Virus record (IMG/VR): IMGVR_UViG_3300045051_000342
Span: 1-39,043 of that record
Strand: one strand, 5' to 3'
Source of the DNA: a virus
Length of the DNA stretch: 39,043 nucleotides
How positions within the stretch are numbered: position 1 is the first letter of the stretch; each line of letters starts with the position of its first letter. Positions 2,358 to 35,194 of the stretch are shown piece by piece. The position numbers and the translations under genes were made by a program. The notes beneath the pieces were generated by a model that saw only the letters and a list, made by a program, of their open reading frames with translations, was not told the DNA's origin and ran no database searches.

Positions 2358-2551
2358 ACCGTCTCCGCCCGCTCCTGCCCGAGACGGACAACGGCCGCGC
2401 CCTGCTGCTGGGCCTCGTCCTGACCTCGCTCGGCCTGCTGGTGATGCTCCCGCCGGTCGCCCTCTGGGGCCCGGGCGCCGCGATGCTCGTCCCGGGGGCG
2501 ATCTTCGTGTTCCTCGCTTTCATCACCCCGCCACCGGAGGGTGAGTCATGA
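2354..2551 (+). CDS. Small two-helix membrane protein
   Basis: A 65-residue protein that starts in an ATGA overlap with terL and ends in an ATGA overlap with the portal gene, which strongly supports translation. After a short basic N-terminus, residues about 14-55 are two hydrophobic segments split by a Pro/Trp/Gly turn. The C-terminus is short and acidic. No family is recognised. A membrane protein locked between terminase and portal is unusual and might link head assembly to the membrane, but no function can be assigned. Confidence 0.7.
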   Translation: MNRLRPLLPETDNGRALLLGLVLTSLGLLVMLPPVALWGPGAAMLVPGAIFVFLAFITPPPEGES

Positions 2552-4089
2552 GATTCCTCGACCGCGCCGCGGCCACCACCGTCATCCCGTTCACGCCCTC
2601 GACCTATGACGAGGCGTTCCGCGACCGGCTGGGTCCGATTGCGACGAACATCAGTGCCGACCGGTCAGAGGCGATCCCGGCGGTCTACGCCTGCACCACG
2701 GTCATCAGCGAGGACATCGCGAAGGTCCCGCTGCACATCCTCGAAGACCTTGGGTCGGACGCGGATGGGCGATCGCTGGGCAAGCGCCGGGCCTCGGACC
2801 ACGAGTGGTACGACGCTCTCCACCACAGGGCGAACGACTATCAGACCGCGCTCGAGATGCGCGAGATGATGACGGCGTTCGCGCTCAACCGTGGCGTCGG
2901 CGTGGCGCGCAAGATCCGGCGCAGCGTCGGCCGCACGGTCCGCCGCGAGCTCGAGCCGCTGCACCCCGACCTCATCACGATCGAGACGACGGACACCGGC
3001 GACCTGCGCGTCCGCTACCAGAACCCGATCGAGCGCAAGGAAGAGCGCCTCCTGGCTGACGAGGTGTTCGTCCTCTGGGGCCGGCGGCGGCGATCGGTCC
3101 TCTCGTTCATGCGGGAAGCGTTCGCCGTCCAGCTCGCAATGATGGAGTTCGCGAACCAGACCTGGAAGCGCGGCCCGCGCCACACGGGCGTGATCCTGCG
3201 CCCGAGCACGGCGCCCCGCTGGACGGACAAGGCGCAGGAGAACTTCCGCAAGGCCGTTGACGAGTACATGGGCGAGGGCGAGCGCGCCGGACGCCCGATG
3301 CTCCTCCAGGACGGCATGACGTGGGCCAACAGCGGGTTCTCCCTGACGGACTTCGAGTTCCTCGGCCAGCTGCAGCACGGCGTGGCCGATGTCTGCCGGG
3401 CGTACCGAGTGCCCCAGCACAAGATCCAGGAGCTCCTGCGCTCGACCAACAACAACATCGAACAGCAGAGCGTGGACTACGTCGTGGACTCCCTGCTCGG
3501 CTGGGCGGTGCGCTGGGAACAGGCGTATCGCGCGCAGCTGCTCAGTGAGCCGTTCGTCGCCGAGCACAACCTGGACGGCCTCCAGCGCGGCGATTACAAG
3601 GGCCGTGCCGAGGGCAACGCGATCTACGTCAGCCTCGGGGTGCGCAGTCGGAACGAGGTCCGCGAGGACCAGGGCTGGAACCCGGTCGACGGCGGCGACG
3701 ACATGCTGGTCCCGCTCAACATGAACATCCCGGGGACCTCGGTCGCCTTCGCTCCTCCCAATCGGCTGGGCGAGGCGCACCGCCGCGCGCTCGTGCGCGA
3801 CGGGGTGTCGCGCGTCCTGCGCAAGGAACACCAGACGCTCGCCAAGGTCGCTGAGCGCACCGGCGGCCGCGGTGACGAGTGGGAGCGCGAGGTCAACACC
3901 TTCTACCGCGAGCACGCCGAGTGGACGTCCCGCGTCCTCGCCATCAGCGAGGAACGCGCCGCGCGCTACACCCGCGGCCGGGCCGGGGACGTCATCGCCA
4001 GCCCGTCGCTGCTCGTGGATCTCGAGGACGCATCGGACACCCTGACCGCCATCGCCCTGGCCGACGCCCGGGAAGGAGTCGCCGCATGA
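2548..4089 (+). CDS. Portal protein (HK97-like)
   Basis: A 513-residue protein expected to form the dodecameric ring at one head vertex through which DNA passes. The N-terminal segment AIPAVYACTTVISEDIAKVP (residues about 43-62) is the typical opening of HK97-type portals. It is followed by the YRVPQHKIQELLRSTNNNIEQQ region near 285-310, also characteristic of the family. The C-terminal third is charged and helical. It overlaps its neighbours by ATGA. Length and position after terL and before the prohead protease fit the standard head-gene order. Confidence 0.93.
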   Translation: MRFLDRAAATTVIPFTPSTYDEAFRDRLGPIATNISADRSEAIPAVYACTTVISEDIAKVPLHILEDLGSDADGRSLGKRRASDHEWYDALHHRANDYQTALEMREMMTAFALNRGVGVARKIRRSVGRTVRRELEPLHPDLITIETTDTGDLRVRYQNPIERKEERLLADEVFVLWGRRRRSVLSFMREAFAVQLAMMEFANQTWKRGPRHTGVILRPSTAPRWTDKAQENFRKAVDEYMGEGERAGRPMLLQDGMTWANSGFSLTDFEFLGQLQHGVADVCRAYRVPQHKIQELLRSTNNNIEQQSVDYVVDSLLGWAVRWEQAYRAQLLSEPFVAEHNLDGLQRGDYKGRAEGNAIYVSLGVRSRNEVREDQGWNPVDGGDDMLVPLNMNIPGTSVAFAPPNRLGEAHRRALVRDGVSRVLRKEHQTLAKVAERTGGRGDEWEREVNTFYREHAEWTSRVLAISEERAARYTRGRAGDVIASPSLLVDLEDASDTLTAIALADAREGVAA

Positions 4090-5078
4090 ACCGCTACCGC
4101 CGTGTCGTGGAGTACCTGTCCGCCCATCCGTGGGCCATCACCCGGGAGAAACTGGACGGCATCGTTGAGCTGATCCGGATGCGGTCCGAGGGCGGTCGGC
4201 TGGCAGAGGACGAGATCGCGACGCGTCTCGCCGCGGCGCGAGCGACGCAGGGCGAGCGACGGGCGGAGTCGTTCGCTGGCATCGTGCCCATCTACGGCGT
4301 GATCATGCCGCGCGCCAACCTCATGACCGAGATGTCGGGCGGGACCACGGTCGAGGGCCTGCGGCGGTCGTTCCGCGCCGCGTTGGCGGATCCCGAGATC
4401 AGCCGGATCATCTTCGATGTCGACTCGCCCGGCGGGTCGGTCGAGGGCATCACGGAGATCGCCGCAGAGATCCGCGACGCCCGCGGCCAGAAGCCGATGA
4501 CCGCGGTCGCGAACTTCACGATGGCCTCGGCTGCGTACTGGATCGCGGCCCAGGCAGACGAGATCATGGCCTCGCCATCGGCCCTCGTGGGGTCCATCGG
4601 CGTGTACGGCGTGCACGAGGACTGGTCCGTCGCGAACGAGCAGATGGGCGTCGCGCCGACCTACATCAGCGCCGGTAAGTACAAGACCGAGGGCAACCCC
4701 GACGCGCCGCTGGGCGATGAGGCCCGGGCGCACATGCAGGAGCTGGTCGACGCGTCGTATGACCTCTTCGTCCGCGACGTGGCCGCTGGACGGGGTGTCA
4801 GCCCATCGGCCGTCAAGGCGGGCTACGGCGAGGGGCGCGTGCTGCCCCCGGAAGCCGCAAGGGCCGCGGGGCTGATCGATGGCATCGCGACCTACGATGA
4901 GGTGCTCGGCTCCAAGCCCCCGCGCATGAAGGCCCGGACGAAGGCCGAGGATGTGGAGCTGATCCGCCAGGCGACGGGCGCTGCCGAGCACATCGACGTG
5001 GCTGCGCTCGCCGCGGACGCGGAGCGCTTCGCGTACGAACAGGAGCGTCGGCGACGGCTGGGCCTGCGACCGGCCTGA
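4086..5078 (+). CDS. Prohead protease, S49 (SppA/protease IV-like)
   Basis: A 330-residue serine peptidase likely to mature the procapsid by trimming the scaffold or delta domain of the capsid protein. The fold signature is FDVDSPGGSVEG (residues 110-121). The nucleophile is Ser148 in TMASAAYW and the general base is a lysine in SAGKYK (K198 or K200), the Ser/Lys dyad of family S49. The ATG at 4086 overlaps the portal stop (ATGA) and is preferred over in-frame upstream codons inside the portal gene. S49 proteases replace S14 or U35 proteases in many phages, and the capsid protein here has the long N-terminal domain such a protease would remove. Confidence 0.93.
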   Translation: MNRYRRVVEYLSAHPWAITREKLDGIVELIRMRSEGGRLAEDEIATRLAAARATQGERRAESFAGIVPIYGVIMPRANLMTEMSGGTTVEGLRRSFRAALADPEISRIIFDVDSPGGSVEGITEIAAEIRDARGQKPMTAVANFTMASAAYWIAAQADEIMASPSALVGSIGVYGVHEDWSVANEQMGVAPTYISAGKYKTEGNPDAPLGDEARAHMQELVDASYDLFVRDVAAGRGVSPSAVKAGYGEGRVLPPEAARAAGLIDGIATYDEVLGSKPPRMKARTKAEDVELIRQATGAAEHIDVAALAADAERFAYEQERRRRLGLRPA

Positions 5079-5150: not shown

Positions 5151-6080
5151 ATGATCGACGTCCTCGCCTCGGAGGTCCAGTACCGCCATCACCTGGAGCC
5201 GGTCCATGCAGCGCTTCCTCCGGAGATCCGCGGCCGCCTGCTCGATGGGGACGCTGCGATCCCCCACGACGGCGCGCCGGTCCTGGTGGCGTCATACCAC
5301 GACCTTCGGCGCGCGAGACGAGCGGGTCGGACCCGGATCGCGTGGATCGAGCACGGTGTCGGCCAGTCCTATGGCGGCGACCCCGAGACAGCCGACCACC
5401 CCGCCTACCCCGGTGGCCGGGACCACGACGACGTCAGCCTGACGCTGACCCCCAATCGCACGGCGGCCGCCCGCTGGCTGGATCGCTACCCATCCATGGA
5501 CGTGCGGGTCGTCGGCTGCCCCAAGCTCGACACGCTGCCCGTCCTCGAACCATCCGGCGAGCCCGTCGTGGCCCTGTCGTTCCACGGCAACGCGCACATC
5601 GGGGCGCCCGAGGCCCAGAGCGCGTGGCGCCACTACCGCGACGTCCTGCCCTCGCTCCGCGGCTTCCGGGTCATCGGCCACGCCCACCCGCGGTACGCGC
5701 CTCGTCTCCGGGGGTGGTACCAGCGGGCCGGGATCGAGTTCGTGCCCGACTTCGCGGAGGTCTGCCGGCGCGCATCGGTGTACGTCGCGGACAACACGAG
5801 CACGCTGTTCGAGTTCGCCGCCACCGGTCGGCCGGTCGTCGTGCTGAACGCGCCCTGGTACCGGCGCCGCGTCCAGCATGGCCTGCGGTTCTGGGAGACG
5901 TCGCACGTCGGGCTCAACGTGGAGGATCCGGGCTCCCTCGCCGAGTCCATCGCCAGCGCCCTGCGTGATCCGGAGCACCGACGGGTGGACCGCGAGGAAG
6001 CCCTGATCGATGCGTACGAGTACCTCGAGGGCGCTGCGCGGCGAGCTGCGAACGCGCTCTCCGACTGGGCCGCCTCGTGA
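5151..6080 (+). CDS. GT-B transferase, CDP-glycerol glycerophosphotransferase-like
   Basis: A 309-residue predicted cytoplasmic transferase and first gene of the sugar cassette. It has a two-domain GT-B layout. The N-terminal half contains WIEHGVGQS (65-73). The donor half contains VIGHAHPRY (174-182) and the long signature DNTSTLFEFAATGRPVV (214-230), followed by NAPWYR. The last motif is close to the D-x-S-S-x-x-F-[DE]-[FY]-A-x-x-x-[KR]-P pattern of the TagB/TagF family, which moves glycerol phosphate or related groups onto teichoic acids. It ends in a GTGA overlap with the dehydratase. Donor and acceptor are unknown; a sugar transferase of related fold is equally possible. Confidence 0.72.
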   Translation: MIDVLASEVQYRHHLEPVHAALPPEIRGRLLDGDAAIPHDGAPVLVASYHDLRRARRAGRTRIAWIEHGVGQSYGGDPETADHPAYPGGRDHDDVSLTLTPNRTAAARWLDRYPSMDVRVVGCPKLDTLPVLEPSGEPVVALSFHGNAHIGAPEAQSAWRHYRDVLPSLRGFRVIGHAHPRYAPRLRGWYQRAGIEFVPDFAEVCRRASVYVADNTSTLFEFAATGRPVVVLNAPWYRRRVQHGLRFWETSHVGLNVEDPGSLAESIASALRDPEHRRVDREEALIDAYEYLEGAARRAANALSDWAAS

Positions 6081-7039
6081 TCAGCGGGCGGGTCCTCGTC
6101 ACTGGCGGGACAGGGTCCCTCGGCCGTGCGCTGATCGGGCGCGGGATCGCCGAGGGCTGGGACGCGGCGTTCGTCGTCTTCAGCCGTGACGAGGCCAAGC
6201 AGGCCGCGATGCGTGAGACGTACCCCTCCGTGCGCTACGTGCTGGGCGACGTGCGAGACGAGGCGACGCTGGAGGCGGCGGCCCGGGGTGCGGACGTCAT
6301 CGTGCACGCGGCGGCGTACAAGCGCGTCCCCGAGGCAGAGCGCCAGCCGATCACCTGTGCCGGCGCCAACGTGGAGGGCTCGATCGAGGTCGTGCACGTC
6401 GCGCGCCGTCTCGGCATCCCGCGCGTGCTCGGGATCAGCACGGACAAGGCGTGCAGCCCGATCAACGCCTACGGCATGACCAAGGCCCTGATGGAGCGGC
6501 TGTTCCAGGCTGAGGCCCTCGAACGCCCGGAGGGGCCGGCGTTCACGCTCGTGCGCTACGGCAACGTCCTGTCCTCCACGGGCAGCGTCGTGCCCGCCTT
6601 CCGCGCGCAGATGGCGACGGGCGTCCTGAACGTCACCGATCCCGGCATGACCCGGTTCTGGATCACGCTGGACGACGCGGTGGACCTCGTGGAGGCTGCG
6701 CTGCGCTCTCCGGCGGGGACCATCCTCGTGCCCCGCTCACGCGCGTCGAGCATGGCCGTGATGGCCGAGGCCATCGCACCGGGGCTGCCGACCGTGACCA
6801 CCGGCAACCGGGGCGGGGAGAAGCGCCACGAGCAGCTGCTGAACGTCCACGAGTCGCCGTTCGCGGTCGAGGCGCCAGCGGGCTATGTTCTCTCGCCCAT
6901 GGCCGGTGAGCCGCTCGCGTTCCTCCCCGACGGGTTCGAGTATCGCTCCGACACGGCGCCCCAGATGACACCCTCTGAGCTCCGGGCCATCCTCGCGCGC
7001 ATGGACGCCCACGAGGCGGTCCGGACCCTCGCCGCGTGA
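6077..7039 (+). CDS. UDP-sugar 4,6-dehydratase (PseB/FlaA1/CapE-like)
   Basis: A 320-residue short-chain dehydrogenase/reductase enzyme. Relatives convert UDP-GlcNAc to a 4-keto-6-deoxy sugar nucleotide with bound NADP. The Rossmann motif is GGTGSLG (10-16). HAAAYKRVP (77-85) is diagnostic for the PseB/CapE/FlaA1 branch. The catalytic set is intact: T122-D123-K124 in STDKACSP, then Y132-x3-K136, the same spacing as in FlaA1. RYGNVLSSTGSVVP and DPGMTRFWITLDDAVDLV follow as expected, and GEKRHEQLL is kept near the C-terminus. GTG start and stop overlap both neighbours. The product probably feeds the transferases on either side, which is inference. Confidence 0.9.
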   Translation: MISGRVLVTGGTGSLGRALIGRGIAEGWDAAFVVFSRDEAKQAAMRETYPSVRYVLGDVRDEATLEAAARGADVIVHAAAYKRVPEAERQPITCAGANVEGSIEVVHVARRLGIPRVLGISTDKACSPINAYGMTKALMERLFQAEALERPEGPAFTLVRYGNVLSSTGSVVPAFRAQMATGVLNVTDPGMTRFWITLDDAVDLVEAALRSPAGTILVPRSRASSMAVMAEAIAPGLPTVTTGNRGGEKRHEQLLNVHESPFAVEAPAGYVLSPMAGEPLAFLPDGFEYRSDTAPQMTPSELRAILARMDAHEAVRTLAA

Positions 7040-9003
7040 TCCCGCGGACGCTGCACCACATCTGGTTCGGACCACGCCCCGTTCCGGAGGCGTGGATCGC
7101 CGCCTGGTGCGCGATGCATCCGGGCTGGGAGCATCGCCTGTGGCGCGAGGCGGACCTGGCCGGTGTGCCGATGGTCAACCGCGCGGCGTTCGAGGACTTC
7201 CTGGCGCGTGGCGTGTGGCACGGAGCGGCCGACATCGCCCGGGTGGCGATCCTGCGGGCGCAGGGTGGCGTGTACGTGGACGTTGACAGCAAGCCCCTGC
7301 GGCCGTTCACGGGCGCGCCATTCATGGACGCGGGGTTCTTCGCGGCCTACGAACCGTCGCCCTCCCTGCCGGGGCGGATCGCCAACGGCACCATCGGCGC
7401 GGAGGCCGGACACCCGATCCTCGCGACCTATGCCGAGCTCGTGTCGCGGATGGAGTGCCTCGCGGAGCCCTGGGACACCACGGGCGGCACCGGGCTCACA
7501 GCGGCCGTCCTCGTCCACCGCCAGTGCTGCAAGCCGCTCGTCCTGCCCGCCCGGACGTTCTACGCGACCGACGCCCACGGCCGTCCGGTTCCGGGTCGGG
7601 AGACGGCGTACAGCGAGCATTTCTGGGCGAGCACGAACCATGCCTACCCGGTGCGCGCCGCGATCATGGTCCCGCGTCGGGCCGGCGATTTGGTCCGCGA
7701 TCGGTCATGGGAGTACGTCCGCCGCCATTGGGAGCCGCTCGGGCTGCCGATCCACGAGGGCCACCACGACGACGGGCCGTTCAACGCGGCCGCGGCGCGG
7801 AACGCGGCTGCGGAGAGCGCCGGCGATTGGGAAGTGGCCGTGTTCGCGGATGCCGACACGGTCATGGTCGACCACGAACCCGTCCGTCGCGCCATCGCGC
7901 AGGCCGCGAAGACCGGCCAGATGGTCCGGCCCTATGCCCGGTACTGGATCCTTGACCAGGGGGCGTCCGAGGCGCTCATGAGCACCGGTCGCGCCCCCCG
8001 ATCGACGGGTGCGCGCCTCCTGCGAGCCGGGCAGGCCCACGGTGGCGTCAACGTGGTCCCTCGCGCCCTGTGGGACAAGGTCGGCGGGTATGACGAGCGC
8101 TTCCGGGGATGGGGGTCCGAGGACACGGCGTTCGAGCTCGCGTGCACCGTGCTCGGCGGCTTCCGCCAGACGCAGGGCGACGTGTACCACCTGTGGCACC
8201 CGATCAGCGCCGACCGCTCGACAGCCGACCCGGGCTTCCAGGCCAACGTCGCGCTCCGTCACCGGTATGAGGCGGCCCGCAGGCCGGGGGCCATGCGCGC
8301 GCTGGTCGCCGAGCACGACGGGCGGGAGCCCGCGCCTCCCGAAGTGGGACTGGTGATCATGACCAATGGCCGCCGCGACTGCATCGCCCGGACCATCCCA
8401 TCCCTCGAGGCGCAGGTGGGTCCGTTCGCCCAGCGGGTCATCTGCGACGACTCGGGCGACCCCGCGTACGTCGCATGGCTGCGCGAGACGTTCCCCGCGT
8501 TCACCATCCGCGCTCATCCCCACCTGGGGCACGGCGGAGCGGTGCGGTTCGCGATGGCCGAGGCGGCCAAGCTGGACGCTGACTGGGTGTTCTGGTCCGA
8601 GGACGATTTCGAGTTCGCCTGCCGCATCGACGTGCCAGCCATGGTGCGCACGATGGAGACGGAGGGCGACGACCTGAAGCAGATGGTCATCCGGCGCCAG
8701 GCGTGGTTCCCGGCCGAGGTCGAGGCCGGGGGCATGATCGAGCGCTTCGATCCCGCGCTGTTCACGGAACGCGAGGGACCCTGCGGACCGTGGATCGAGC
8801 ACCGCCAGTTTTTCAGCCTGAACCCGCACCTGATCCGGCGGTCCCTGCTCTCGGTCATCCGCTGGCCGGCCGTGGAGAACAGCGAGCATCACTTCGGCCT
8901 GCGACTGTTCCGCGACGCCCGGGTGCGGTGCGGGATCTGGGGCGCCAAGGCCGACGCTCCCATCGCGCGCCACAGCGGCGAGCGCGTCGGGACCGGGTAC
9001 TGA
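7036..9003 (+). CDS. Three-domain GT-A glycosyltransferase
   Basis: A 655-residue fusion. Domain 1 (about 1-205) has the GT32/OCH1-like pattern: HHIWFG at the start, DIARVAILRAQGGVYVDVD and the metal-binding D82-V-D84. Domain 2 (about 206-415) resembles GT2/GT27 proteins, with VFADADT (D272-A-D274), GGVNVVPRALWDKVGGYDE and the catalytic-loop motif GWGSED (358-363). Domain 3 (about 435-655) starts VGLVIMTNGRRDCIARTIPS and has a WSEDDFEF metal site (522-524), again GT2-like. All three metal motifs are intact, so one chain may add several sugars in sequence. The GTG start overlaps the dehydratase stop. It is the last gene before the capsid promoter. Confidence 0.85.
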   Translation: MIPRTLHHIWFGPRPVPEAWIAAWCAMHPGWEHRLWREADLAGVPMVNRAAFEDFLARGVWHGAADIARVAILRAQGGVYVDVDSKPLRPFTGAPFMDAGFFAAYEPSPSLPGRIANGTIGAEAGHPILATYAELVSRMECLAEPWDTTGGTGLTAAVLVHRQCCKPLVLPARTFYATDAHGRPVPGRETAYSEHFWASTNHAYPVRAAIMVPRRAGDLVRDRSWEYVRRHWEPLGLPIHEGHHDDGPFNAAAARNAAAESAGDWEVAVFADADTVMVDHEPVRRAIAQAAKTGQMVRPYARYWILDQGASEALMSTGRAPRSTGARLLRAGQAHGGVNVVPRALWDKVGGYDERFRGWGSEDTAFELACTVLGGFRQTQGDVYHLWHPISADRSTADPGFQANVALRHRYEAARRPGAMRALVAEHDGREPAPPEVGLVIMTNGRRDCIARTIPSLEAQVGPFAQRVICDDSGDPAYVAWLRETFPAFTIRAHPHLGHGGAVRFAMAEAAKLDADWVFWSEDDFEFACRIDVPAMVRTMETEGDDLKQMVIRRQAWFPAEVEAGGMIERFDPALFTEREGPCGPWIEHRQFFSLNPHLIRRSLLSVIRWPAVENSEHHFGLRLFRDARVRCGIWGAKADAPIARHSGERVGTGY

Positions 9004-9013
9004 CGAATGTCCC

Positions 9014-9043
9014 TTGACAGGTATGCATCCGTGGCCGGATAGT
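9014..9043 (+). promoter_or_regulatory. Probable sigma-70-type promoter for capsid and tail genes
   Basis: TTGACA at 9014-9019 is a perfect -35 box. GATAGT at 9038-9043 matches the -10 consensus at four of six positions after an 18-base spacer. ATCCG (9027-9031) and CGGAT (9036-9040) form an inverted repeat inside the spacer and -10 box, a possible operator. It lies just after the sugar cassette and about 175 bases before the capsid start. Confidence 0.55.
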
Positions 9044-9218: not shown

Positions 9219-10553
9219 ATGGCATCCCTCCTCGAGACCCTCCAGGCGGACCTCTCGACCGAGCAGGCGACTCTCGCTACCCTGACCCAGCAGCGCAACG
9301 TCCTCGAGGCCGAGGCGGAGACGGCCGGTTCATACGATCCGGTGCGCGACCGGCTGGGCCCGGTCGACTCCCAGATCAGCGCCCAGAACCAGCGCATCGA
9401 AGCTCTCAGCGGCGACCTGCGCCGCGAGCAGGACCGCCGCCAGCGGGCCCGCACGGCTCCTGCGGCGCGGGTCGAGCACGACGCGGAAGGGCCGATCACG
9501 CCCGTCGGCGGGTTCGCCCGCATGCCGGCCTCGCTCACCGACCAGTTCATGGGCTCGGACGCGTGGCGCAGCTACGTGTCGGCCGTGGCGCCGCAGGGCT
9601 TCGCTGCCCGGCAGCGGATCGAGAGCCCGAAGATCGAGATCGCGGGCAGCATCATCCCGGGCATGACGCGGCGCGGCCTCGTCACCGGCGGCTCGGTCAC
9701 CTCGGCCGGCGCCCTGATCCTGCCCAGCCAGGCGGGCATCTTCGATGAGGGCACGTTCCAGCGCGAGCTGTCCGTGCTGGACGTCATCACCCGCGGCACG
9801 ACCGACAGCGACACGGTCGAGTACGTCCGGACCACGGGGTTCACGAACCTCGCGGCCATCGTGCCCGAGGCCGACAACGTCGCCGACACCGACGACACCG
9901 GCCGCAAGCCGTGGTCCACGATCGCGCTCGCGCGGATCCAGGAGTCCGTCCAGACCATCGCCCACGGCGAGGCCGCGACGACCCGGGCCCTCGCGGACGC
10001 CGGCCAGATGCGCACGATCATCGAGAACTGGCTGCGCTACGGCCTGCTCGAGGCCCTCGAGGACGAGATCGTCGGCGGCGCCGGCGGGGCCGACCACTTC
10101 GACGGCATCCTGACGGTCGCCAACACCCAGAGCCAGGCGTTCGCGACCGACATCGCGACGACCATCCGCAAGGCGAAGACCAAGGTCCGCATCGGCGGCA
10201 AGGCGCGCGCCAACGCCGTCCTGCTCAACCCCGAGGACTGGGAGACGCTCGACCTGTACATGACCCTCGAGGGTCCGGGGTCGAACTTCCGCCAGGCCAC
10301 GGACGAGAGCCCGGCCCGCATCTTCGGCCTCTCCATCGTGGAGACCGAGGCGGTCGAGGCGGGCACGGCGATCGTGGGCGACTTCCGGCGCGCCGTTCTC
10401 TGGGACCGCCAGCAGACGACCGTCCAAGCGACCAGCGGCTACATGGACTTCTTCATGAAGAACCTGGTCGCGATCCTCGCCGAGCTCCGCGCCGCCTTCG
10501 GCGTGATCCGGCCCGCGGCCTTCGTCATCACCGACGTCAGCGCCGGCTCGTAA
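9219..10553 (+). CDS. Major capsid protein (HK97 fold)
   Basis: A 444-residue shell protein. Residues 1 to about 90 are charged and helical with heptad-like spacing, as in the delta (scaffolding) domain that prohead proteases remove. The HK97-like core follows, with a helix running through IIENWLRYGLLEALEDEIVGG... near 268-288 and the typical late segment ANAVLLNPEDWETLDLYM (about 327-344). The ATG at 9219 has AGGAGA eight bases upstream, within a hairpin. It is the first gene behind a promoter and is followed by a strong stem-loop, which would allow it to be made in larger amounts than its neighbours. Confidence 0.93.
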   Translation: MASLLETLQADLSTEQATLATLTQQRNVLEAEAETAGSYDPVRDRLGPVDSQISAQNQRIEALSGDLRREQDRRQRARTAPAARVEHDAEGPITPVGGFARMPASLTDQFMGSDAWRSYVSAVAPQGFAARQRIESPKIEIAGSIIPGMTRRGLVTGGSVTSAGALILPSQAGIFDEGTFQRELSVLDVITRGTTDSDTVEYVRTTGFTNLAAIVPEADNVADTDDTGRKPWSTIALARIQESVQTIAHGEAATTRALADAGQMRTIIENWLRYGLLEALEDEIVGGAGGADHFDGILTVANTQSQAFATDIATTIRKAKTKVRIGGKARANAVLLNPEDWETLDLYMTLEGPGSNFRQATDESPARIFGLSIVETEAVEAGTAIVGDFRRAVLWDRQQTTVQATSGYMDFFMKNLVAILAELRAAFGVIRPAAFVITDVSAGS

Positions 10554-20807: not shown

Positions 20808-21064
20808 TGGCCGCGATCGTCACGCAGCACGTCGTTGAGGTCATCATCCCGCGCACGACCTACAGCCCCGCCACGCCGACCGGGGTGGGCGTCACGCAGC
20901 ATGTCCTCGAGGCGGTGATCGCAGACGATGCCACTCGGGCGGCCGTCACCCTGCACGTGGTGGAGGTCATCGTCGCCGCGGATCCCGACGGCTCACACGG
21001 CGGCACGGGCGGGGGCGGGGGCACGCCCACCCCTGTCACGCACTCCTTCGGCTACGCGGTCTGA
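20807..21064 (+). CDS. Short triple-repeat tail-tip protein
   Basis: An 85-residue protein with three near-identical strands: VTQHVVEVII (5-14), VTQHVLEAVI (29-38) and VTLHVVEVIV (47-56). They are followed by a glycine linker (65-72) and a short aromatic tail ending in FGYAV. The repeats alternate hydrophobic residues and could form a three-stranded beta spiral or an oligomeric plug. Short proteins with a repeated V-T-Q-x-V-x-E-V unit follow fibre genes in other phages. Its last 72 bases overlap, tail to tail, the minus-strand membrane gene. Confidence 0.7.
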   Translation: MAAIVTQHVVEVIIPRTTYSPATPTGVGVTQHVLEAVIADDATRAAVTLHVVEVIVAADPDGSHGGTGGGGGTPTPVTHSFGYAV

Positions 21065-21763
21065 GCGCCCGAGGTAGGCCACCACCGGGACCAGCATCAG
21101 CGGCACGTCCTGGATGCTGTAGAGCAGGCCGCCCCCTTGCCCGTTGAGCAGGACGTTGGCGTACTGCGGCCACAGTGGCGCGAACACGAGGGCCGTCATC
21201 CCGAGGCCGAGAGCAGGCAGCCACCACGCCCTGCGGCGCATCCCGATGAGCGCGAACGGCGCGAGCGAGGGTTTCAGCAGCACGAACACCGACGGCCAGC
21301 CGTAGACGGTCCCGAGAGCGCAGGCTGCGGCCGTCCACATGAACGGGTTGCCGTGGACGATCTTGACCATCGTCGGCGGGTACGCGAGGCACAGCGCGAG
21401 CAGCGGCCACGTCCACGGGGCCGGCCGATGTCGGACGATGACCCAGCCCACCACGCCCAGCGGGATCGCCCAGAACAGGATGGCCGGCAGGGCGAGGAAC
21501 GCCGCGAACATGGGGATGGTCGAGGGCGGATAGAGGATGTCGCCGTCAGTGATCGTGTAGGGCACCAGCTGGTGCGCGGGGTAGAACGCCTCCCCGCCGA
21601 TCCATCGCCGCGTCGCGTCCAGGTACAACGTGAGGTCTGCGCCGACACGGCCGAGGCCCGCGGCCCGTGCGTAGGCCATCGATGCGACGACGCCGGCGCC
21701 GATGACGATGAGCAGCGTCAGCCCCACCATCACCGGCCGGTACCACCGCCCCCCGTGAGTCAC
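20993..21763 (-). CDS. Polytopic membrane protein, GT87/DUF2029 mannosyltransferase-like
   Basis: A 256-residue membrane protein. The GTG at 21763 is preceded by GGAGG with six bases of spacing; an in-frame TTG lies at 21778. About seven hydrophobic segments are visible. An outward loop GADLTLYLDATRRWIGGEAF near the first helix carries the acidic residues that define polyprenyl-phosphate-sugar-dependent (GT-C) mannosyltransferases. YPPSTIPMFAAF and a second YPPTMVKIVHGN follow. It is shorter than the usual 400 residues and lacks much of the C-terminal half, so it may be reduced or regulatory. It lies downstream of the repressor on the same strand, which suggests expression in lysogens. Confidence 0.6.
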   Translation of the reverse strand: MTHGGRWYRPVMVGLTLLIVIGAGVVASMAYARAAGLGRVGADLTLYLDATRRWIGGEAFYPAHQLVPYTITDGDILYPPSTIPMFAAFLALPAILFWAIPLGVVGWVIVRHRPAPWTWPLLALCLAYPPTMVKIVHGNPFMWTAAACALGTVYGWPSVFVLLKPSLAPFALIGMRRRAWWLPALGLGMTALVFAPLWPQYANVLLNGQGGGLLYSIQDVPLMLVPVVAYLGRSDRVAEGVRDRGGRAPAPARAAV

Positions 21764-21988
21764 CTCGTCCCTCCCCAATACGCACCAGCCCTGAGCGAGC
21801 CGGTGTCACCCCGATTCCGTAGGACGCTCAGCCGATGGTACCGCGCGCTTGACGCCATCTCTCAGGCGGGCGTACCGATAGGCGAGCATCCCGGCCCAAC
21901 GTCCGGGCTTGGGGCGCTGCACCATGGGGGTCCCGCGTGTCCGCGCCTGTTACCGATCCGGACATCATCGAAGCCATCGAAGCCGCGC
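21764..21988. other. Gap between membrane gene and repressor
   Basis: No well-supported gene is seen. A 67-codon plus-strand frame opens at 21937 but runs antisense into the repressor and lacks a convincing ribosome-binding site. CTGAGCG (21791-21797) and CGCTCAG (21825-21831) form an inverted repeat that could regulate the minus-strand membrane gene starting at 21763. No clear -10 and -35 pair was found on either strand. Confidence 0.4.
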
Positions 21989-33754: not shown

Positions 33755-34167
33755 GCGACCCCATGACCGTCAAGGAAGTCGCCGTGAAGCTGAGGGTCCA
33801 CCCGAACACGGTGCTGCACATGCTCAAACGCGGCGAGCTCGGCGGGGTGCGGGCCGGGACCGCGTGGCGGATTCCGTTCGCCGCGCTGAATGCATACCTG
33901 GAGGGCTGGAGGGATGGCGTACGATCCGGACGTGGGGAACCCGACCGGCAAACACCGCCCGAAGCGGCGTCACCACGGCCAGGGAAGCCGTCCGTTCCGC
34001 GTCACGGACGCGCGTCGTCGCCGACCGTGGCGGTGCGACCTGCGGATGGGCCGGGACCCGGCGACCGGGAAGCTGCGAACGAAGTCGTTCTGGGGTACGT
34101 CGGCCGCCGAAGCCGCGGCACTCCGAGACGAGTATCGCGACCGGCTCCGTCGCGCGGGCTCGGCTGA
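33751..34167 (+). CDS. xis: Excisionase-like HTH protein
   Basis: A 138-residue frame. The first 52 residues form a MerR/excisionase-type winged HTH: MTVKEVAVKLRVHPNTVLHM, then GGVRAGTAWRIPFAALNAYL. Rather than stopping there, the frame stays open for 84 more codons over the start of the integrase gene. This tail is Arg/Pro-rich and may be real or simply high-GC read-through. GTG 33751 (GTGA overlap) or ATG 33763 could start it. It should bend attachment-site DNA and steer integrase towards excision. Confidence 0.76.
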   Translation: MSDPMTVKEVAVKLRVHPNTVLHMLKRGELGGVRAGTAWRIPFAALNAYLEGWRDGVRSGRGEPDRQTPPEAASPRPGKPSVPRHGRASSPTVAVRPADGPGPGDREAANEVVLGYVGRRSRGTPRRVSRPAPSRGLG

Positions 34168-35194
34168 GGCCGCGGAGCGCACCGTGTCCGTCATGCTCGC
34201 CGAGTGGTACGCCGAGCGCGCCCCGAACGTCGACCCGTCGACCAAGGCACGGTACGCGGGGATCGTCGCGCACCACCTTGTCAAGGGACGCACCGCGCCC
34301 GGACGGAACGGCGTGCTGTTGGGCGACCTCCTGGTGCTGGACGTGACGCACGCCGACGTCCTCGCTTCCCGGGCGTCGTGGGTCACGCAGCCCCGCGGAA
34401 AGTCCCCCGGCGGCAAGCCGCTGTCGGCGTCCGCGTCGAACCTCGCCCTCGGCATCCTGCGCGAGGCGCTCGCGACCGAGGTCAAGCTGGGGCGCATCGA
34501 AACCGACCCCACCGCGGAGGTCGCCCGGCGGCGCCGAACGTCGTCGCCCGCCCGCTACCTGACCCTCGAGCAGGCCCTTGCGCTGCGCGACGCCCTGAAA
34601 GGCGACCCGCTGGAGCTCGTGGTCAAGGTCGGGCTCGCGGTCGGTCCGCGGCGGGGCGAGATCCTCGGCATGCGCTGGTCCGACATCGACCTCCCGGCCG
34701 GGACGTGGCAGATGAACTGGCAGCTCCGGTCCATCGCGCCGCGCTTCCGTCACGAGGGCGAGGGCCCCTACCGGCTGGTGCGCCTCAAGGGCGACCACGC
34801 CACGGGACGCGTGCTCGCGCTGCCGGCGTTCCTCGTCACGGCGCTGACGGCGCACAAGGCGGTGCAGGACCCGATTCGCAAGCGAGCGAAGGTGTGGGTC
34901 AAGCCCGGTGACCTCGTGTTCTGTGACGAGATCGGCCAGGCGCTGCCGCCGGGCTCCGTCACGAGGCGATTCGAGCAGCTCGCCGCGCGGGCCGGATTGG
35001 GGCATCTGCGCTTGCACGATTTGCGCCACAGCTACGGCACCATCGCGACCGCGATGGGGATCAACCCGCGCGTCATCCAGGCGAACATGGGCCACGCGAC
35101 ACCGCGACAGACCGCGGAGTACACGCACGTCGTGGAGTCGCTGGGACGCGATGCAGCGGACGTGTTCGACGAAGCGATGGGAGGTGCAGGGTGA
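33914..35194 (+). CDS. int: Tyrosine integrase
   Basis: A 426-residue site-specific recombinase. A basic N-terminus and AP2-like arm-binding region (about 25-80) precede a core-binding domain (90-205). The catalytic set is complete: R246 in VGPRRGEILGMRW, K292 in LVRLKGDHATGR, H368-x2-R371 in LHDLRHSYGT, H394 in NMGHATPRQT and the nucleophile Y403. ATG 33914 follows GGAGGG with a short spacer. It starts within the excisionase frame and ends in a GTGA overlap. A probable attP lies about 300 bases downstream. Confidence 0.95.
   Translation: MAYDPDVGNPTGKHRPKRRHHGQGSRPFRVTDARRRRPWRCDLRMGRDPATGKLRTKSFWGTSAAEAAALRDEYRDRLRRAGSAEAAERTVSVMLAEWYAERAPNVDPSTKARYAGIVAHHLVKGRTAPGRNGVLLGDLLVLDVTHADVLASRASWVTQPRGKSPGGKPLSASASNLALGILREALATEVKLGRIETDPTAEVARRRRTSSPARYLTLEQALALRDALKGDPLELVVKVGLAVGPRRGEILGMRWSDIDLPAGTWQMNWQLRSIAPRFRHEGEGPYRLVRLKGDHATGRVLALPAFLVTALTAHKAVQDPIRKRAKVWVKPGDLVFCDEIGQALPPGSVTRRFEQLAARAGLGHLRLHDLRHSYGTIATAMGINPRVIQANMGHATPRQTAEYTHVVESLGRDAADVFDEAMGGAG

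Follow-up and report, generated by a model that had tools for sequence, protein, structure and literature searches.

The window analysed here spans positions 1 to 39,043 of the viral record IMGVR_UViG_3300045051_000342 from IMG/VR; in it three sugar-enzyme genes are found between the protease and capsid genes of a head operon. The relevant features are:

2548..4089, plus strand: portal protein, upstream head gene (PF04860, 1.2e-66)
4086..5078, plus strand: S49/SppA-type protease, presumed prohead protease (PF01343, 5.1e-35; TIGR00706, 6e-39)
5151..6080, plus strand: cassette gene 1, TagF-like GT-B transferase (conserved motifs, AlphaFold2, Foldseek, PF04464 in relatives)
6077..7039, plus strand: cassette gene 2, PseB/FnlA-like UDP-HexNAc 4,6-dehydratase (PF02719, 2.8e-67; 2gn4, 6.5e-58; alignment A3)
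7036..9003, plus strand: cassette gene 3, three-domain GT-A glycosyltransferase (PF04488, PF02709, PF00535, phrog_1721, phrog_3047, Foldseek)
9014..9043, plus strand: promoter-like site TTGACA-18-GATAGT between cassette and capsid gene (consensus match only)
9219..10553, plus strand: major capsid protein, HK97 fold family (PF05065, 2.7e-30; phrog_10, 5e-42)
33890..35194, plus strand: tyrosine integrase, context outside the cassette (phrog_1, 3.6e-51; PF00589, 5e-21)

The initial annotation had described three coupled genes between protease and capsid, and the open reading frames were indeed found there, encoding products of 309, 320, and 655 amino acids and flanked by the PF01343 and PF05065 genes. 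The cassette genes are intact and translationally coupled; gene 2 (GTG 6077) and gene 3 (GTG 7036) each begin within the stop of the preceding gene through a GTGA overlap, and further upstream the start codon of the protease gene (ATG, 4086) overlaps the stop of the portal gene. Sites of the TTGACA-18-GATAGT type were observed once where 0.2 were expected, which is a match to consensus only. No further sugar-pathway gene was recognised in the window in a search run without a dedicated PseC profile. As a tyrosine integrase is encoded, the phage is probably temperate.

The enzyme identities first proposed, i.e., a TagB/TagF-like GT-B transferase, a 4,6-dehydratase, and a three-domain glycosyltransferase, are supported by profile and fold matches. 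As a single sequence the gene 1 protein matches PF04464 with an E-value of 0.0044, which is under the Pfam cut-off, while 34 of the 52 members of its family match at E <= 0.001. Its AlphaFold2 model (pLDDT 95.3, pTM 0.92) has a predicted GT-B fold with TagF among the top Foldseek matches (3l7j, E 1.2e-8, TMq 0.62). The family motifs are H68-G69, H179-P180, D214-x2-S217, and E221; the six named residues of the first three are kept in 52/52 members and E221 in 51/52. We take these H-G, H-P, and D-x-S-S type motifs to correspond to the conserved motifs of TagF-type enzymes. The resemblance to the TagF/TarL teichoic acid polymerases (PF04464) thus comprises fold, motifs, and the Pfam match of most members. 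On the other hand, the gene 1 protein has only about 11–12% identity to the solved TagF, UDP-GlcNAc 2-epimerases match its fold equally well or better (1v4v, E 2.3e-9), and the members of its family lie in phage head modules. When PDB sequences were searched with the first gene 1 profile, built from four members, no convincing relative came up; the structural relatives come from the fold search only, and the protein has no match in PHROGs.

Gene 2 encodes a soluble SDR with the features of the PseB, FnlA, and CapE UDP-GlcNAc 4,6-dehydratases. It matches PF02719, carries GGTGSLG as its GxxGxxG motif, and has the T122-D123-K124 and Y132-x3-K136 set that had been read as intact; none of these five residues varies among the nine sequences of alignment A3. 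The closest solved relative is the UDP-GlcNAc C6 dehydratase 2gn4. It differs from the characterised families in falling below the FnlA and PseB equivalog cut-offs of NCBIfam (253.5 bits against 407.75 for PseB), for which reason we refer to it as PseB-like only, and no PseC-like aminotransferase was recognised in the cassette. A 4,6-dehydratase yields a 4-keto intermediate only, no aminotransferase or reductase was recognised adjoining gene 2, and for the gene 1 enzyme the donor could be a CDP-linked one, which nothing in the window produces. The description of the cassette as self-contained was therefore too strong.

In gene 3 the Pfam domains Gly_transf_sug (PF04488, residues 63–91), Glyco_transf_7C (PF02709, 334–366), and GT2 (PF00535, 440–553) follow one another, the middle domain matching phrog_1721 (4.8e-30) and the last phrog_3047 (1.5e-11). 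The motif residues D82/D84, D272/D274, and E522-D523-D524 are invariant in alignment A5. Foldseek matched the model to chondroitin polymerase (2z87, 4.4e-12) and also to beta-1,4-GalT. Structure prediction, which had been proposed for every domain, was clear for gene 1 and only moderate for gene 3 (pLDDT 65, from a five-sequence alignment); because of this the C-terminal part, residues 542–642, is left uninterpreted.

A search of viral databases for the same three genes, as was suggested at the outset, found all of them in three more IMG/VR phages at 47–69% identity to the window (open reading frames in relatives were called with a simple home-made caller). The cassette is always in the head module of these phages and always with an extra FkbM methyltransferase, while gene order and heads differ among them: one (L024/L002) has an SPP1-type portal of a different family (PF05133) and a capsid of another cluster, in a second (L037/L010) the cassette is ahead of the S49 protease and capsid, and in the third (L027/L016) an HNH endonuclease gene (PF13392) lies inside the cassette. 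The FkbM gene accompanies the dehydratase in all three and in L088, a contig of a Chloroflexi MAG with the order dehydratase-FkbM-glycosyltransferase that is too short to prove a host, unlike the window, where FkbM is absent. The TagF-like protein was found in none of 400 genomes from the phylum of that MAG with a profile that was positive in 31/31 viral records. In loci with a dehydratase homologue only (L004–L009) the head-gene profiles used here matched nothing; this is a weak control, as those profiles derive from the TagF-like loci themselves.

The variable order and content of the cassette, together with the endonuclease gene in L016, could indicate that sugar genes merely collect where the head module tolerates insertions, perhaps carried there by homing endonucleases, and have no role in the virion. 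We find this quite improbable, as the catalytic-type residues are invariant across the 52 TagF-like members, the nucleotide differences between the window and L016 fall preferentially on third codon positions, and the same enzyme types are associated repeatedly. The cassette is not a chance assembly, since its genes are intact in relatives and the differences from L016 show this third-position bias.

The TagF-like family occurs at 63 non-redundant loci, the window and Rctr41k included. Another sugar gene is within five genes at 45 of them and a head or packaging gene within ten genes at 49. On 8 of 9 scored contigs the TagF-like gene has portal/terminase on one side and tape measure on the other (P 0.0012), the exception being L072/G423; it precedes the capsid gene at 7 loci and follows it at 30. 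It co-occurs with HK97-family, SU10 (PF17236), and phrog_777 capsids, and the recurring partners, the same types being associated across loci, include FkbM, PIG-L, and pyruvyltransferase. Not one of the 207 sugar-gene open reading frames near TagF-like genes has at least two predicted membrane segments, so that no flippase, polymerase, or membrane glycosyltransferase is among them, and all enzymes of the cassettes look soluble, which would fit virion proteins as targets. Because soluble sugar enzymes and related kits recur at this genomic location in dozens of uncultivated phages that otherwise differ, phages of this type probably build their own sugar coat on the virion.

Bacterial relatives of TagF and PseB act on teichoic acids, capsules, and flagellins, and glycan genes are classic lysogenic-conversion cargo. 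With an integrase encoded in the window, the enzymes might accordingly modify surface polysaccharide of the host during infection or in the lysogen, e.g., to block superinfection. This is rather unlikely given the lack of products with two or more membrane segments among the 207 nearby reading frames and the placement of cassettes in the late head module of many phages; moreover, a PF00589 integrase was found in only 3 of 31 other records searched, a figure that covers this integrase type alone and records that may be fragments. The transferases could also act on phage DNA, since some virus-encoded glycosyltransferases are described as glycosylating modified DNA bases (Pyle et al., 2024, as cited in PMC12619734) and all cassette enzymes look soluble. 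Such a function is highly improbable, however: a thymidylate-synthase-type base hydroxymethylase (PF00303) is absent from the window and occurs in just one of the 31 related records, the cassettes accompany head genes and not replication genes, and partners such as FkbM, PIG-L, and pyruvyltransferase typically go with glycans of polysaccharides or proteins. The initial reading that the position points to virions gains from the recurrence of the head-module position with different heads and from the soluble enzymes; the virion as target itself is what we infer from these.

A few mycobacteriophages are known to have glycosylated virions. Of the studied systems that of cluster O (Corndog, Firecracker) comes closest; there an O-methyltransferase and three glycosyltransferases are located between portal and protease (PMC4351075). 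Both systems thus have glycosyltransferase and tailoring genes inserted in the head operon near protease and capsid, and both have a homologous glycosyltransferase: in Firecracker, the cluster O genome compared here, the order is portal-OMT-hypothetical-GT-GT-protease-capsid, and the middle domain of gene 3 has a homologue in gp35 (BLAST 2e-17, hhalign 98.8%). Firecracker gp36, in the position of Corndog gp38, matched none of the cassette profiles, and gp34 was rejected as a TagF relative since none of gp34–gp36 matches the TagF profile. Corndog gp38 is reported to be essential for capsid glycosylation in an account citing Freeman et al. (2023) (PMC12363180). The cassette of the window differs in lying between protease and capsid and in having a sugar-nucleotide dehydratase and a TagF-like protein, which the inserted genes of cluster O lack. 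The arrangement had been called new; a modifying-enzyme cassette in this spot is known from cluster O, and the novelty lies in the sugar-nucleotide dehydratase, in the TagF-like partner, and in how widely the cassette occurs.

Glycosylated proteins are also reported for the cluster C phage Myrna (PMC12363180). Cluster C mycobacteriophages and the Microbacterium phage A3Wally have a neighbouring pair of genes, one homologous to domain 2 and the other to domain 3 of gene 3 (phrog_1721 and phrog_3047 type), as separate genes without domain 1, dehydratase, or TagF-like partner. In A3Wally the pair is among tRNA genes, outside the head operon, and for the cluster C homologues the annotation shows a PnuC-like gene, and not head genes, as neighbour; the enzyme family alone does therefore not fix the target.

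We consider it likely that the cassette glycosylates the virion, as an expanded and swappable version of the Corndog type. Late in infection the three soluble enzymes would be made along with the head proteins. From UDP-GlcNAc, or from a UDP-HexNAc like it, the dehydratase would produce a 4-keto-6-deoxy sugar, which may be completed by host enzymes or used directly, and the three-domain enzyme would assemble a short glycan in the cytoplasm on a structural protein, the capsid protein and the major tail protein being the likeliest candidates. The contribution of the TagF-like enzyme may be a further sugar or a polyol phosphate from a CDP-activated donor. Against virion glycosylation stand the dehydratase without an obvious downstream enzyme and the possibility that head operons may simply be tolerant of inserted genes. 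If the proposal holds, glycosylated virions are common in uncultivated phages whose capsids differ, a sugar-nucleotide enzyme encoded by the phage takes part, and the modification differs between phages, which would change the picture of phage particle surfaces, adsorption, stability, and recognition by hosts; the TagF-like family would then be a simple genomic marker for phages that are likely glycosylated.

It is more speculative, and less likely than not, that many environmental tailed phages carry in the head module an exchangeable virion-glycan locus, a viral counterpart of bacterial O-antigen clusters, in which a shared TagF-like core is combined with variable glycosyl-, methyl-, and pyruvyltransferase, deacetylase, nucleotidyltransferase, and dehydratase genes to give different types of virion glycan, the TagF-like enzyme possibly adding a teichoic-acid-like polyol phosphate. 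Cytidylyltransferase genes are near the TagF-like gene in L021, L025, and L034 and further upstream in L026, which is only suggestive of a CDP-glycerol donor.

The window (39,043 bases, the entire IMG/VR record) has a G+C content of about 70% and carries at its left end a head module of standard type, in the order terminase, portal, S49 protease, genes 1-3 and HK97-family capsid gene:

Left end of the window, head module: terminase (phrog_9)
Head module: portal (PF04860)
5151-6080: gene 1
6077-7039: gene 2
7036-9003: gene 3 (first domain with DxD, of Gly_transf_sug/YeGT type; middle domain beta-1,4-GalT/chondroitin-polymerase-like; last domain GT2)
9014-9043: sigma-70-like promoter site between gene 3 and the capsid gene, a good match (consensus match only)

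The initial annotation placed three coupled genes between protease and capsid gene, and this was confirmed: genes 1 and 2 as well as genes 2 and 3 share four-base overlaps (GTGA at 6077 and 7036), which makes joint translation very likely. The sigma-70-like site may provide the capsid gene with an additional promoter of its own. ARAGORN called a tRNA-Asp antisense within the capsid gene (9827-9918, minus strand), probably a false positive.

Gene 2 matches PF02719 (2.8e-67), 2gn4 (6.5e-58) and the FnlA-type 4j2o (2e-50). The T-D-K and Y-x3-K motifs, previously described as intact, are indeed present and, like the nucleotide-binding glycines, invariant in a nine-sequence alignment. Judged from its sequence, the gene 2 protein is soluble and falls among the short-chain dehydrogenases, in the UDP-GlcNAc 4,6-dehydratase group; it did not reach the PseB equivalog threshold, and no other sugar-pathway genes were recognised elsewhere in the window. 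Gene 3 consists of three GT-A-like domains, with DxD and EDD motifs invariant among five relatives. The gene 1 protein alone fell below Pfam cut-offs and has no PHROGs family, and 34 of its 52 relatives match PF04464 (TagF family). An AlphaFold2 model built from the alignment of these 52 (mean pLDDT 95.3, pTM 0.92) has a GT-B fold according to Foldseek; TagF, which polymerises wall teichoic acid, and UDP-GlcNAc 2-epimerases rank highest among the matches (TM-score by query length 0.56-0.67). TagF-type enzymes have an H-G, H-P and D-x-S-S pattern, with which H68-G69, H179-P180, D214 and S217 of gene 1 agree; these residues are invariant in 52/52 relatives and were contained in none of the search patterns. 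We conclude that gene 1 encodes a predicted TagF-like GT-B transferase.

All three genes were found together in three further IMG/VR phages (L002/L024, L010/L037 and L016/L027; 47-69% identity). An FkbM methyltransferase gene (PF05050), missing from the window, adjoins the dehydratase gene in all three. L024 has an SPP1-type portal (PF05133) and a capsid from another sequence cluster; in L037 the capsid falls into a further cluster and the genes are ordered differently. The cassette has thus been transferred among head modules while always being kept within the head module. In L016 an antisense HNH endonuclease ORF (PF13392; 7494-8030, minus strand) lies between the dehydratase and glycosyltransferase genes, and L026 has, in a comparable gap, an antisense ORF that begins similarly and lacks a Pfam match (9289-9975, minus strand); homing-driven mobility of the cassette is possible. 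Dehydratase, FkbM gene and gene 3 are also consecutive on a Chloroflexi MAG contig (L088), a weak hint to the host.

A position-blind search of viral contigs with gene 1 gave 69 loci, or 63 after duplicates were dropped and the window and the metagenomic Virus Rctr41k added. A second sugar gene lies within five genes of the gene 1 homologue in 45/63 loci, a recognised head or packaging gene on the same strand within ten genes in 49/63, and both in 38/63. Family searches placed both tape measure and portal or terminase on nine contigs, and in eight of these the homologue lies between them (chance under random placement 0.0012), the exception being L072, where it is upstream of the terminase. 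In INPHARED a homologue occurs only in Rctr41k, between terminase and head morphogenesis genes. Capsids at these loci are of the HK97-family, SU10-type and phrog_777 groups. Among the enzymes encoded nearby are transferases of the GT2 and GT4 types, methyltransferases (FkbM and others), PIG-L deacetylase, a rhamnosyltransferase-like family, polysaccharide pyruvyltransferase, an epimerase and cytidylyltransferases. The last lie within five genes of the homologue in L021, L025 and L034 and farther upstream in L026, a hint that the donors may be CDP- or CMP-activated. If the cassette consisted of passenger genes, one would have to explain why catalytic-type residues are invariant, why there is a codon bias at the third position and why the enzyme set recurs.

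The initial annotation proposed that an unusual deoxy sugar is made and attached to virions, an interpretation that is partly supported. The transferases would be soluble, be produced together with head proteins and glycosylate structural proteins in the cytoplasm. No lipid-carrier, flippase or ligase functions were seen with them, and simple hydropathy predicts no more than one membrane segment in any of 207 neighbouring sugar-gene ORFs. Given solubility, co-production and no sign of such functions, cytoplasmic structural proteins fit better as target than host-envelope polysaccharide. Envelope modification is possible because the window phage has an integrase, but one of that family occurs in only 3/31 other records. 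Glycosylation of DNA is disfavoured, as the usual base hydroxymethylase family is missing from the window and found in 1/31 relatives.

For structural protein glycosylation the best precedent is provided by the cluster O mycobacteriophages, which carry an O-methyltransferase and three glycosyltransferases between portal and protease; these enzymes were detected in infected cells and not in the set of virion proteins, and mass spectrometry yielded few capsid peptides (PMC4351075). Another paper calls gp38 of the cluster O phage Corndog essential for capsid glycosylation (PMC12363180). The record of Firecracker, also cluster O, has head-operon modification genes in the portal-to-protease interval, and its gp35 and the middle domain of gene 3 are homologous. 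A head-operon cassette of modifying enzymes was thus already known from this cluster; new are the dehydratase, the spread over different phages and the TagF-like marker family.

In L011, a further phage, three glycosyltransferase ORFs (5385-8255) that share ancestry with parts of gene 3 come after terminase, portal, scaffold and capsid genes; neither a dehydratase nor a TagF-like gene was recognised there. Immediately 3' of the cassette, L019 (6368-8119) and L022 (8314-9978) carry a long ORF without Pfam match. The profile of its family hits Firecracker's protease as well as its capsid protein, so the ORF may be a protease-capsid fusion. In the window, a hydrophobic ORF without Pfam match lies directly past the tail genes (20993-21778, minus strand); it probably encodes a membrane protein and could be a lysogeny cargo gene.
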